Positions 7,525-23,037 of a stretch of 35,823 nt of DNA are shown one piece after another. This DNA is from Pseudobutyrivibrio sp. (GTDB lineage: Bacteria; Bacillota; Clostridia; Lachnospirales; Lachnospiraceae): assembly GCA_024681435.1 (NCBI GenBank), contig JAILAV010000173.1, forward strand, positions 1 through 35,823. Direction: 5' to 3'. The stretch's first letter is position 1; the number at the start of each line of letters is the position of its first letter. A model generated the notes under the pieces. The model made no database searches. It was given only the letters and a program-made list of their open reading frames with translations, and had not been told where the DNA came from. Position numbers and translations under genes: made by a program.

Positions 7525-8379
7525 ATGATTGAAATTTTAAAAGCAATATTATTTGGTGTTGTTGAAGGAATCACAGAATGGCTTCCTATCAGCAGCACAG
7601 GTCATATGATTCTCTTAGATGAGATAGTAAAGCTTGATGTTTCTGAAGAGTTTTATAGCATGTTTCAGGTTGTAATCCAGCTTGGTGCGATACTTGCTGT
7701 TGTACTTATTTTCTGGAATAAGATTTGGCCTTTTGGAAAGAAGGATAATAAAGCACCTCTAAGCAAGACAGGCTTAGGTAGATGGATTAAGACAGATATT
7801 TTTGTTCTTTGGTTCCACATTTTGGCTTCATGTGTTCCAGCAGCAATTGTAGGAATACTTTGGGATGATTTGTTTGAAGAGTTATTCTACAATCCAACAT
7901 GCGTTGCACTTGCACTTATAGTGTTTGGTGTTGCATTCATCATTGTAGAAACAAGAAAAGCTGGCCACAGTGCAAAGATAAATAGTGTGGCTGACATCAC
8001 TTATACAACAGCATTTTTAATTGGTATGTTCCAGCTTATCGCAGCCATCTTCCCTGGCACATCTCGTTCAGGAGCAACAATCGTAGGTGCATTAATCATC
8101 GGGGTTGCCCGCACGGTTGCGGCAGAGTACACATTCTACCTTGCCATTCCTGTAATGCTTGGCGCCAGCCTCTTAAAGATAGCAAAGTTTGGACTTCACT
8201 TCACAGCCATGGAAGCTACAATCCTTCTCGTAGGTATGGTAGTGGCCTTTGCAGTATCCATGTTTGTAATCAAATTCCTTATGGACTACATCAAAAAACA
8301 CGACTTCAAAGTTTTTGGATGGTACCGCATCGCCCTGGGTCTCTTGGTCCTCGCCTGCGGCCTCCTCGGGGTAATCTAA
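7525..8379 (+). CDS. uppP: Undecaprenyl-diphosphatase (UppP/BacA)
   Basis: Integral membrane enzyme that removes a phosphate from undecaprenyl diphosphate to recycle the lipid carrier for peptidoglycan and other wall polymers; it can confer bacitracin tolerance. 284 aa, a little longer than the usual 265-280. Seen: the motif GVVEGITEWLPISSTGH (residues 11-27) and PGTSRSGAT (177-185), the two conserved active-site blocks, with about eight hydrophobic segments. Start supported by AGTGGAGG upstream. The last 90 nt are visibly richer in G and C than the rest of the gene. No promoter stood out between the preceding terminator and the start. Confidence 0.95.
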   Translation: MIEILKAILFGVVEGITEWLPISSTGHMILLDEIVKLDVSEEFYSMFQVVIQLGAILAVVLIFWNKIWPFGKKDNKAPLSKTGLGRWIKTDIFVLWFHILASCVPAAIVGILWDDLFEELFYNPTCVALALIVFGVAFIIVETRKAGHSAKINSVADITYTTAFLIGMFQLIAAIFPGTSRSGATIVGALIIGVARTVAAEYTFYLAIPVMLGASLLKIAKFGLHFTAMEATILLVGMVVAFAVSMFVIKFLMDYIKKHDFKVFGWYRIALGLLVLACGLLGVI

Positions 8380-8405
8380 ACACGAGGCTGATGTCAAAAA
8401 GTAAG

Positions 8406-8502
8406 AAAGCCAACCTGTAGGTAGCAAGCTCTGTGTGTTCTTAAGCGAGACGTGTTGTCGAGCGAAGAATACGCAGGCTTGTAACCGTAACAGGTTGGCT
8501 TT
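8406..8502 (+). ncRNA. Structured RNA-like element, copy 1 (also a terminator-like hairpin)
   Basis: Foldable 97-nt element just after uppP. Outer stem P1: 8406-8418 with 8490-8502 (13 bp, AAAGCC... / ...GGCTTT). Inner stem P2: CAAGC (8425-8429) with GCTTG (8477-8481), one bulged T (8430), then 12 more pairs (8431-8442 with 8465-8476). The apical loop 8443-8464 contains GAGACGTGTTGTCGA. After P2 comes TAACCGTAAC. The same loop, bulge and TAnnCGTAAC joiner recur at 22904-22986, with different but still complementary stem sequences. P1 is followed by TTTT and a T-rich tail, so it may also end the uppP transcript. I do not recognise it as a known RNA family. Confidence 0.6.
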
Positions 8503-8516
8503 TGTATTATTTACCC

Positions 8517-10049
8517 TTACCTGCGGGTAATTAGGGACTGGAGGTCTACGCCTGCGGCAGCGCTAGCTTGTGCGATGTAGTTAGGGTCTGCTGCGTTTTT
8601 GTAGAAGTCGTAGCCCATCTTGTGAGCGCCGTCCAGACCACAGAGTCCAGAGGCCATGCCCTGTGCGATATCGATGACGTCGTCAGATTCGCGAGAAACA
8701 ACGATTCCATCAATGTGGCTGTTGTTTTCTGCTACAAGGTATGCATAGACGAGTGAAGCTGCCTGGAGCTGCTCTCCGTTGGCACTTGTGTAACCAACTT
8801 CGGAACACTTTACAGATCTAACAGCGCCTGTTGGTGAAAGCATATCAGGTGTGCATAAGAAATCAGTTAATACATCAATGTTTGCCATTGTAACATATGG
8901 TGAGTTCTGGCTGTGAGATACACTGCCTGATGTCTCCCATGCGTTTGGTGCATATAAAGGAGCGTTGTATGGGTGAACAGCAACTCTCCAATCAACATTA
9001 CCTTCATTCTTAATTAATGAATTAAGTTGTGTTAAGAATGCCTTACCAGAAATATAGTATGAAGCTTCTGCACGAGCCCACTGGTGATCAATACATGTAT
9101 AAACGTTAGCATTTGCATTCTCAGATTTGATTCCGTTGTACATGATTCTAAATGCTCTAGCATATTCCTGCATAAACACATCGTTAGAACCACAATTCAT
9201 ATAATTCCAAAGCCACCAAGCGTTAACTTCATTACCGATGATGAAGTTATCAACCTGACCGTAGCCAATGCCCGAATAATGCTTTGCAAGGTAAGATGAA
9301 GCATACTCTAAAGCGGCAACACCTTCTGCTGTGCTTGAATTTAAACCATAGTAGTTATGTGCACCAAGTCCATCTAAAGAGTATGGGTTGATGTACTGAG
9401 CAGGGCTTGCAACATCAACAAGTATAATTACATTAACCTGCATTCCTAAACCATTATACTTGCGAACTGAAAAATCATATCCTGCTAATGAACCGATTTT
9501 TGAAAGAGGAATATTTAAATTAACCTGCTTTGCTCCTAAATCAGCTGGCTGATTCTTAGATGCAACCGACTGTAATAAATCAGGAAGGACACCCTTCTTT
9601 CCAAAATCCATTCGTGCTGGTGCAGCAGAAGCACAAGCCTCAGGATTTGTAATATACATACTGTTTGAAACTGGTGTAAGAGCACCACCTCTCATAGCAC
9701 ATACAGTGAATTTCTTAAATAGCATTGAATTTGCTGTGCCCTTTGCAAGGGGAACAGTAAATGTAGCACCACTTGCTGCAGCGGCCTGAGCAACATCTGT
9801 TCCAGCAGGTGCTGACTGATTTGGTTCAGAGGCAACTAAATGATACATGCCATCATCAGATGCAGATGCACCTGCAGTTGTAACTACAACATCAGCTCCT
9901 TGGATAACTGTTGCAGCGATGGTAACACCTGTAGAAGCTGCAGATTTAGCAGATTTTGCAGGCTTTGCTTCAGCGATGTTAAAGCTTAATGTAAACATAA
10001 GCATAAAGGCGAATAAACCGCTGAAAAGCTTTTTTGAAAACTTTTTCAT
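8517..10049 (-). CDS. Secreted DUF5722-like protein, probable TIM-barrel glycoside hydrolase
   Basis: 510-aa exported protein. Seen: a signal peptide (residues 1-28, lysine-rich start, hydrophobic core, AEA cleavage site), an Ala/Ser-rich beta-type region (about 40-150), then a large domain (about 160-500). That domain carries IIGNEVNAWW with Glu274 and KCSEVGYT with Glu417, placed like the acid/base (Asn-Glu) and nucleophile of clan GH-A barrels. I associate the C-terminal domain with DUF5722, whose substrate is not established to my knowledge. Good AAAGGAG site and own promoter. It is transcribed divergently from the maltodextrin regulator, hinting at carbohydrate use. Convergent with uppP. 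Activity is inferred, not shown. Confidence 0.75.
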   Translation of the reverse strand: MKKFSKKLFSGLFAFMLMFTLSFNIAEAKPAKSAKSAASTGVTIAATVIQGADVVVTTAGASASDDGMYHLVASEPNQSAPAGTDVAQAAAASGATFTVPLAKGTANSMLFKKFTVCAMRGGALTPVSNSMYITNPEACASAAPARMDFGKKGVLPDLLQSVASKNQPADLGAKQVNLNIPLSKIGSLAGYDFSVRKYNGLGMQVNVIILVDVASPAQYINPYSLDGLGAHNYYGLNSSTAEGVAALEYASSYLAKHYSGIGYGQVDNFIIGNEVNAWWLWNYMNCGSNDVFMQEYARAFRIMYNGIKSENANANVYTCIDHQWARAEASYYISGKAFLTQLNSLIKNEGNVDWRVAVHPYNAPLYAPNAWETSGSVSHSQNSPYVTMANIDVLTDFLCTPDMLSPTGAVRSVKCSEVGYTSANGEQLQAASLVYAYLVAENNSHIDGIVVSRESDDVIDIAQGMASGLCGLDGAHKMGYDFYKNAADPNYIAQASAAAGVDLQSLITRR

Positions 10050-22657: not shown

Positions 22658-22865
22658 AGCGGCATCGCAGTTTATCTAGTTCCCGCAAGCCATCTCCCAT
22701 ATCTTCGCATGGGAACCCTCCTTCGGATATGTAAGCTTCGCTTACTAGAGCAACAGTTTCCATCGCTATGCTCGGAAACTATTACTCATTTCCCGCCGGC
22801 GTAGGTCCTTCCCATGCTCGATACGGGGCCTTCTTGCTCGCGCTTGCCAAGACTAAGATGCCGCT
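22658..22865. repeat. Dense intergenic hairpin cluster bounded by a 9-bp inverted repeat
   Basis: A 208-bp GC-richer block after serS. The ends AGCGGCATC (22658-22666) and GATGCCGCT (22857-22865) are exact complements. Inside are several small hairpins: TCCCAT/ATGGGA (22695-22700, 22709-22714), GTAAG/CTTAC (22731-22735, 22741-22745), AGTTTCC/GGAAACT (22755-22761, 22774-22780), and weaker CCC/GGG and CTTG/CAAG pairs (22811-22852). CATATC/GATATG gives an alternative pairing. Several loops contain CGC...CTCG-like strings. No ORF. It may be a genome-wide intergenic repeat, a non-autonomous mobile element, or an RNA; I do not recognise a named family. Confidence 0.55.
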
Positions 22866-22872
22866 GTATTAT
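22844..22872 (+). promoter_or_regulatory. Probable typA promoter
   Basis: TTGCCA (22844-22849), 17-bp spacer, TATTAT (22867-22872), at the right edge of the hairpin cluster. The predicted start near 22879 would place the structured element at 22904-22986 inside the typA leader. Confidence 0.55.
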
Positions 22873-22903
22873 ATATGAGCTAGTAAGTAAATGCATTAGA
22901 TGA

Positions 22904-22986
22904 GGCGGTAGACATCAAGCTATTATGTTTCCTGCGTGAGACGTGTTGTCGAACGTGGAAATATAATGCTTGTAGGCGTAACCGCC
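22904..22986 (+). ncRNA. Structured RNA-like element, copy 2
   Basis: Homolog of the element at 8406-8502. Stem P1: GGCGGT (22904-22909) with ACCGCC (22981-22986). Stem P2: CAAGC (22916-22920) with GCTTG (22968-22972), the same bulged T (22921), then 11 pairs (22922-22932 with 22957-22967). The loop 22933-22956 holds the identical GAGACGTGTTGTCGA; the joiner TAGGCGTAAC matches TAACCGTAAC of copy 1. The outer stem and upper P2 differ in sequence from copy 1 but still pair. It lies 51 bp before typA, probably in its leader. A T-run (22998-23001) lies further downstream, not directly after P1. Confidence 0.6.
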
Positions 22987-23037
22987 GGACTAGGGGTTTT
23001 TACTGGAACTATAGGTTTGCAGTAGAAAGAGAAATTT

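Follow-up and report, generated by a model that had tools for sequence, protein, structure and literature searches.

Short interspersed hairpin repeats of Pseudobutyrivibrio, probably mobile, with a conserved fold and exchangeable modules

A hairpin element that had been recognised as two copies in one Pseudobutyrivibrio contig proved to belong to a family, here called element 1, that recurs tens of times in its own genome and in nearly every genome of the genus. We judge it likely that the family consists of genus-specific mobile short repeats, comparable to BOX, ERIC and bcr repeats and selected for a hairpin fold with conserved internal-loop motifs; as part of the same reading, we take copy 1 probably to form the loop of a terminator-like stem behind uppP and copy 2 the leader hairpin of typA. 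High copy number, covariation, intergenic placement, presence, absence and inversion at sites in sister genomes, nesting, and largely independent assortment of modules were all observed. The features of the window, meaning the whole 35,823-nucleotide stretch of contig JAILAV010000173.1 that was analysed, are collected in Table 1.

Table 1. Positions of element 1, element 2 and associated features in the window
Feature	Position	Strand	Description
Copy 1	8405..8503	+	terminator-like setting 3' of uppP; 102.2 bits, the best of 62
Copy 1, model match	8411-8499	+	covariance model
Copy 1, outer stem P1	8405-8418/8490-8503	+	3' arm ends in TTTT; from fold and sequence
Copy 1, inner part	8425..8481	+	P3 CAAGC/GCTTG, bulged T 8430, P4, tip
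Copy 1, tip	8447-8461	+	tandem G·A around GAC-GTGTT-GTC
Copy 1, GTAAC closing motif	8487..8491	+	GUA internal loop plus AC of P1, opposite GTA 8417-8419
Element 2	22659..22864	-	modular hairpin repeat of a second, different kind, GCGGCATC...GATGCCGC (GGCAAGCGCGAGCAGG...CCTGCGGGAGC), adjoining copy 2 on its upstream side; from fold
Candidate promoter TTGCCA-17-TATTAT	22844..22872	+	end of element 2 and following bases; would point at copy 2/typA; candidate by consensus resemblance only
Copy 2	22896..22996	+	leader setting 5' of typA; frame TTAGATGAG...CGGACTAGGGG; model match 22902-22990, 93.6 bits
Copy 2, P1	GGCGGT 22904-22909 / ACCGCC 22981-22986	+	from fold

The initial annotation had described two matching hairpins on the same strand that share CAAGC/GCTTG, a bulged T, one loop and a TAnnCGTAAC joiner; sequence and fold agree with this description, and each of these parts was found in both copies. 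Exact matches to the loop, GAGACGTGTTGTCGA, lie at 8447-8461 and 22938-22952, and the rest of the window has none even at up to three mismatches. By itself the loop is weak evidence, because shuffled windows held 0.35 matches on average and two or more in 2 of 100 shuffles. The predicted folds are far more stable than chance, at −59.5 kcal/mol for copy 1 (z = −9.3) and −38.5 kcal/mol for copy 2 (z = −5.0), with none of 200 shuffles as good in either case. The identities of UppP and TypA are backed by NCBIfam. Copy 1 lies between uppP (plus strand, ending at 8379) and an ORF at 8517-10049 without an NCBIfam match; since that ORF is on the opposite strand, no same-strand gene directly follows copy 1, as had been remarked. 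The typA gene begins 48 bases past the end of copy 2. P1 has 14 pairs at the uppP copy and 6 at the typA copy, a contrast that matches their terminator-like and Shine-Dalgarno-proximal settings.

In the source genome, the loop matched 29 places at up to three mismatches and its reversed control 42, so that loose matches to the loop are mostly fortuitous. We dropped the loop as a family marker and accepted copies by fold, because the control outnumbered the loop. As a seed, 14 of the 29 places were judged structured by fold and given a hand-drawn structure, with 15 left out, and a covariance model built from these 14 own-genome copies was used to count further copies at E ≤ 0.001. This search for homologues, which had been proposed at the outset, recovered at least 62 copies in the source genome (2.2 Mb, 81% complete; 150 of 952 first-look candidates scored), so that the description of a two-copy element fell well short; the loop first seen is one of several tip sequences in the family. 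Rfam 15 gave no match at gathering score in the window or at 20 further loci. Below threshold, the best hit of copy 1 was a microRNA family at 18.8 bits against a cut-off of 68, and copy 2 had none up to E = 10. With nothing credible at either level, we rejected identity with an Rfam family, in keeping with the earlier failure to match the element to a named one.

The element is about 90 nt long and non-coding. From the outside in, it is built of P1, an A opposite GUA, P2 (3 pairs), P3 (CAAGC/GCUUG) and a bulged U, followed by P4 (about 12 pairs), an AA/G internal loop, a short stem, a tandem G·A and a 3-pair stem with its loop. The 5' end reads GTAG or GTAA, with its GT paired to the AC of the 3' end, GTAAC; the two ends thus pair with each other, and neither is a small palindrome itself. 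The sequence of the outer stem varies from copy to copy. Unpaired positions, by comparison, are nearly fixed: A9 at 100%, U20 at 98%, the G·A positions at 92-97% and GUA at 98/100/94% (alignment of 64 rows, 62 distinct).

We measured covariation by pair counts against shuffles. In the 14-copy alignment, 94.7% of cells were paired, 26 of 31 pairs had two-sided changes and covariation was 0.609, compared to 0.191 when shuffled and at most 0.093 in every slid-structure control. Across the 62 distinct copies, in an alignment fitted by the model, 95.0% were paired, 28 of 31 pairs had two-sided changes and covariation was 0.697 against 0.192. The proposal that stems of different sequence remain paired therefore describes a real, compensated structure, and the covariation check suggested with it came out strongly in favour.

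Such symmetry also raises the alternative that selection on RNA plays no part and that a perfect palindrome is maintained as DNA, whether by template-switch correction of quasi-palindromes or as the substrate of an enzyme acting on single-stranded DNA. This would fit the scarcity of one-sided changes among the 14 seed copies (5 cells, compared to 93 changed on both sides), the occurrence of copies in both orientations, and, between sister genomes, an inversion in place and a deletion between GTAGGC repeats inside a copy. The strands are not equivalent, however: among 1178 cells at sequence-anchored pairs we counted 31 G-U and 4 A-C, in copies still chosen by a model that tolerates G-U, with a split of 29 to 4 in 49 copies and 2 to 0 in the 13 antisense copies. 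The excess of G-U over A-C indicates that just one strand carries the fold, be it RNA or single-stranded DNA; a hairpin of the latter kind would equally produce such an excess. Also against DNA-level maintenance, a single copy of the 62 lies between divergent genes, and three sites shared between sister genomes are 97-98% identical. The tandem G·A and the 1x3 loop are, moreover, the kind of motif used by RNA. On balance, we consider maintenance as DNA without RNA selection unlikely.

We explored how the copies are placed relative to genes. All 62 are small and lie between predicted ORFs of at least 80 aa; nine mechanical ORF calls (ATG/GTG/TTG) begin within a copy, seven well inside and two in the last 24 bases, and these mostly have a Shine-Dalgarno sequence and start farther downstream. 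Thirty copies are co-directional with both neighbours, 13 are antisense to both, nine sit between convergent genes and one between divergent genes, and nine have one or both neighbours uncalled. The 13 antisense copies are a misfit with a strictly sense RNA role. Many leader copies sit in a frame resembling UUAGAUGAG...CGGACUAGGAGG, whose end falls in or at a Shine-Dalgarno sequence; other copies form long stems bordered by runs of A and of U, in the manner of intrinsic terminators. Regular-expression rules, crude enough to misassign a few copies, classed 27 as leader, 15 as terminator, 2 as both and 18 as neither, with a median P1 of 6 pairs in the leader type and 11 in the terminator type. 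In the 29 copies followed by a Shine-Dalgarno sequence and a start codon, openness of that sequence was 0.58 with the element and 0.48 with a shuffled element (higher in 20 of 29 copies, P = 0.048), a marginal effect in which at least 3 of the 29 cases are probably misassigned terminators. Close pairs of element 1, tandem or inverted and less than about 70 bases apart, occur at five loci (L097, L100, L107, L109, L089) in a BIME-like arrangement.

The outer and inner parts of the element largely reassort, without being fully independent. Within the source genome, all 10 pairs of copies with an inner identity of at least 0.90 differ in their P1 arms, with a mean of 3.9 of 6 P1 matches compared to 3.2 overall; conversely, the 41 pairs with identical P1 arms have a mean inner identity of 0.68 compared to 0.64 overall. 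The association between P1 and the inner hairpin is weak but not nil (rho = 0.145, reached in 5 of 2000 permutations).

To follow individual sites, we compared the genomes of the sister species G011 and G019, which are mostly 89-97% identical in long blocks. The comparison took in the 17 copies with aligned flanks in two regions of G011, the stretch at 1400-1520 kb being excluded. In G019, 7 of the 17 sites are empty, which may reflect gain or loss alike, 5 are shared, 3 hold other sequence (one of them the typA leader), 1 is inverted and 1 internally deleted. The inverted element stands in place with a different P1, the deleted copy has lost its inside between the GTAGGC repeats, and one of the empty sites lies opposite a shortened G011 copy. 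At one site in G011 (27240), a complete second copy of element 1 replaces P4, an instance of self-nesting. As to target-site duplication, aligned blocks overlap by 5 bases at one site, and none was seen by eye at the others.

Three of the five shared pairs are those with 97-98% identity. The other two each have 4 pairs altered on both arms; changes confined to a single arm number 0 in one and 1 in the other, and 2 and 6 pairs, respectively, are broken or misaligned. Because P1/inner combinations vary and two-arm changes cluster at these two sites, part of the apparent compensation may be replacement of modules. We therefore rejected the view that covariation arose solely by compensatory mutation in steps, the two sites looking replaced. 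The initial annotation had ascribed the differing outer stems to selection for compensation; this is supported in part, some of the difference having possibly arisen by module replacement. We also considered that the core had entered a terminator hairpin already in place. Since G019 shows no such hairpin at an empty terminator-type site (179935), we limit ourselves to the weaker statement that P1 and the inner hairpin largely reassort.

Turnover was also evident at sites followed across the genus. Upstream of typA, the model matches 9 of the 24 loci that hold the start of the gene, 7 above 60 bits and 2 weakly; by eye, both weak matches are hybrids, and one locus sequence (L156) reaches only 80 bases upstream. 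Again by eye, other typA loci often carry at the same spot element 2, a plain hairpin or hybrids in which element 2 has replaced the inner part of element 1. Of 23 uppP loci, 7 have element 1 downstream of the gene, in one case antisense; the sequence of one locus, L189, stops 2 bases past the match. At several of the remaining loci a simple terminator-like hairpin stands there instead. Between purM and purN, inspection by eye found the element in 11 of 25 genomes, abutting genes (TAATG) in 7, and other sequence or a remnant in another 7. The 11 copies here have P1 and most of P3 in common and differ in P4, as judged by eye. Between purN and purD, inspection by eye found element 1 in 2 genomes, element 2 in 2, a third element in 3, small TTACCACTG hairpins in 7, near-empty spacers in 7, and remnants or a short frame in 4. 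In one genome (G008) the element sits between the end of purN, which is two codons shorter and takes its stop codon from the 5' end of the element, and the native Shine-Dalgarno sequence, which is also present in the empty genomes G004 and G022.

Element 2, directly upstream of copy 2 (Table 1), has a further hairpin seemingly inserted in its CCGGCGGG...GGAGGG tip. Its TTGGCAAGCGCGAGCAGG motif occurs at up to three mismatches in 9 places in the source genome, compared to 0 for the reversed control. By eye, we recognised element 2, with varying inner nested hairpins, at 14 further loci (L143, L149-L155, L157, L158, L160, L162, L238, L246), and in relatives it also occurs within the frame of element 1.

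Other hairpins were seen at the same sites. The third element between purN and purD (L242, L251, L252) is about 150 nt long, rich in UGA/GAA internal loops and set in the same kind of GAGC...GCGGACTAGGAGG-like frame; G002 (L244) has the short frame hairpin only. Six loci there (L237, L234, L239, L243, L249, L256) carry tandem arrays of TTACCACTG...CAGTGGTAA hairpins with variable spacers, several units to a junction, and L248 carries a single unit. Repeated TTCTGTCACAAGG...TTGTGACAGA hairpins 3' of uppP in G018 and G023 (L177, L182) appear to be a further repeat family. Among typA leaders without element 1, four (L144, L146, L147, L159) open with a plain hairpin after a consensus-like promoter; judged from sequence, it is as if a 5'-terminal hairpin of any kind were kept before typA.

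A bolder reading, which we put forward tentatively and hold to be possible, not probable, is a "nesting-doll" mobile RNA system. In it, unrelated hairpin families (elements 1, 2 and 3 and the TTACCACTG hairpins) would compete for Shine-Dalgarno-side and terminator sites, concentric modules would insert into or replace hairpin tips, selection would act on the folded RNA and not on its sequence, and neither a RAYT nor a reverse transcriptase would be needed.

These placements also bear on whether the element is a regulator, either a cis-regulatory RNA (riboswitch-like or a protein-binding leader) or a stand-alone small RNA, that senses something and serves a many-gene regulon. Strong conservation of unpaired motifs would suit such a role, as would the many copies immediately 5' of a Shine-Dalgarno sequence, the position upstream of typA common to the 7 of 24 loci above 60 bits, and the two copies within the purM-purN-purD stretch. 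A regulator is harder to reconcile with 62 copies beside varied genes in one genome, 22 of which either oppose both neighbours in strand or lie where two genes converge, and with relatives in which the same site is empty or holds an unrelated hairpin; nor was an alternative fold of the expression-platform kind noticed. Among the sites whose genes were identified by name, association with a single pathway was not found: those at typA, uppP and the pur junctions turn over between relatives. Copy number and turnover thus disfavour a riboswitch, and we regard regulation of either kind as improbable. The earlier suggestion of a 3'-UTR element or mobile repeat gains support from context and turnover; that of a stand-alone RNA does not.

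We next asked how far the repeat extends. Within Pseudobutyrivibrio, 24 of 25 genomes carry it, in at least 1 to 106 copies each (at most 107 candidates were scored per genome). It was found in none of 16 genomes from other families of the order, nor in any of 297 genomes from other genera of the family in a shallow search; low-copy presence outside the genus could be missed there, because 14 candidates were scored per genome. An exact pattern matched 38 stretches in a species-genome collection, all titled Pseudobutyrivibrio except FP929036 (Butyrivibrio fibrisolvens 16/4). The exact pattern matched no viral contig in IMG/VR and 71 bases of copy 1 matched no plasmid or phage record, results that rule against a phage or plasmid origin. 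In the open-licence PubMed Central literature, no earlier description was found among the matches listed; papers that mention intergenic repeats together with Pseudobutyrivibrio concern, by title and abstract, LytTR systems and a Butyrivibrio glycobiome, and no paper pairing butyrivibrio with "intergenic repeat" was found.

Two enzymes that might mobilise the element, Y1 transposase and reverse transcriptase, were sought in the genus. Y1_Tnp is present in 9 of the 25 genomes and absent from 16, including the source genome (81% complete), and RVT_1 is present in 13 and absent from 12. Six genomes (the source genome, G007, G011, G016, G019 and G021) have neither at E ≤ 0.001. We rejected RAYT/Y1 or a reverse transcriptase as the mobiliser, since G007, G011, G016 and G021 carry 59 to 72 copies each and neither enzyme was detected in them. 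At the 16 Y1 loci, none had an element within about 1.5 kb (E ≤ 0.01), and the possibility that hits would be confined to a transposon end found no support at these Y1 transposase loci.

The same results weigh on membership in the REP/REPIN family, moved by a RAYT transposase. Element 1 resembles REPs and REPINs, as described in passages of PMC3733652 and PMC3116915, in being a high-copy extragenic hairpin with a GTAG-like 5' end and compensated arms, and differs in lacking a linked RAYT and in the architecture of its ends. No RAYT/Y1 gene flanked by the repeat was found, the Y1 transposase being absent from the source genome and 16 of the 25 in all. Nor does element 1 show the REPIN layout of a self-palindrome of 20-40 bp with an adjoining GTAG tag, repeated head to head: the ends pair mutually, the 3' end is GTAAC and not an inverted GTAG, and about 90 nt are spread over several helices. 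We therefore consider this membership very improbable.

The preferred reading, a mobile repeat under selection for its fold, carries a proposed mechanism. The element would spread as a unit recognised through a folded RNA or single-stranded DNA form. It may persist because a compact hairpin before a Shine-Dalgarno sequence or in a terminator loop would not impede the start of translation or termination; a leader copy could in addition provide a stop codon upstream. The element would be transcribed, and as a hairpin at an mRNA end may affect how neighbouring messages are processed or how stable they are.

Various bacteria carry small interspersed hairpins, whose mode of spread and whose conserved folds call for an explanation. 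In Pseudobutyrivibrio, tens to about a hundred copies are present per genome, sites in sister species can be found filled, empty, inverted or nested, and the modules reassort, so that the insertion mechanism, arm-to-arm correction and the effect on mRNA become directly testable by sequencing strains and their RNA. The findings suggest that part of the untranslated RNA in Pseudobutyrivibrio is mobile, and they advise caution elsewhere, in that an apparent compensatory mutation can be a module replacement.

Among known systems, element 1 comes closest to the small structured repeats of other bacteria, with which it was compared by description. The BOX, RUP and SPRITE repeats of Streptococcus pneumoniae, with 125, 110 and 30 copies in one genome, are similar in their high copy number, the modular build of BOX, predicted RNA stem-loops and the terminator-like form of SPRITE; BOX is transcribed in 5' or 3' extensions of operons, and the repeats are mostly confined to close relatives (passages of PMC3049150). 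BoxB modules vary in number in a row, whereas those of element 1 are concentric and nest. ERIC and other bacterial MITEs, in the portions of PMC2229807 drawn on here, are alike in their length (about 100-200 bp), long stem-loop transcripts and intergenic placement, and ERIC is reported within transcripts with an orientation-dependent effect on upstream mRNA. Element 1 shares with MITEs the filled and empty sites in close relatives (7 of 17 empty, and likewise at purM-purN and purN-purD); several MITEs, however, possess terminal inverted repeats and TA ends and duplicate their target, whereas the outermost stem of element 1 varies between copies and no consistent duplication was seen. The bcr1-bcr18 repeats of the Bacillus cereus group, as excerpts of PMC3446304 describe them, also lie between genes, in 5' and 3' UTRs and between operon genes; bcr10 and bcr18 have a conserved RNA structure and bcr1-3 are MITE-like, and those excerpts mention neither the nesting nor the module exchange seen in element 1. 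Repetitive hairpins of sponge mitochondria are likewise intergenic, thought to be mobile and able to form double hairpins via tandem insertion (sections of PMC2800124), but they are organelle elements, and those sections mention neither the insertion of one hairpin within another nor conserved internal loops, both features of element 1. Given its likeness to BOX, ERIC and bcr and the outcome of the REP/RAYT comparisons, we therefore place element 1 among the small structured interspersed repeats, from which, as those are described, it is set apart by its concentric exchangeable modules and its nesting.
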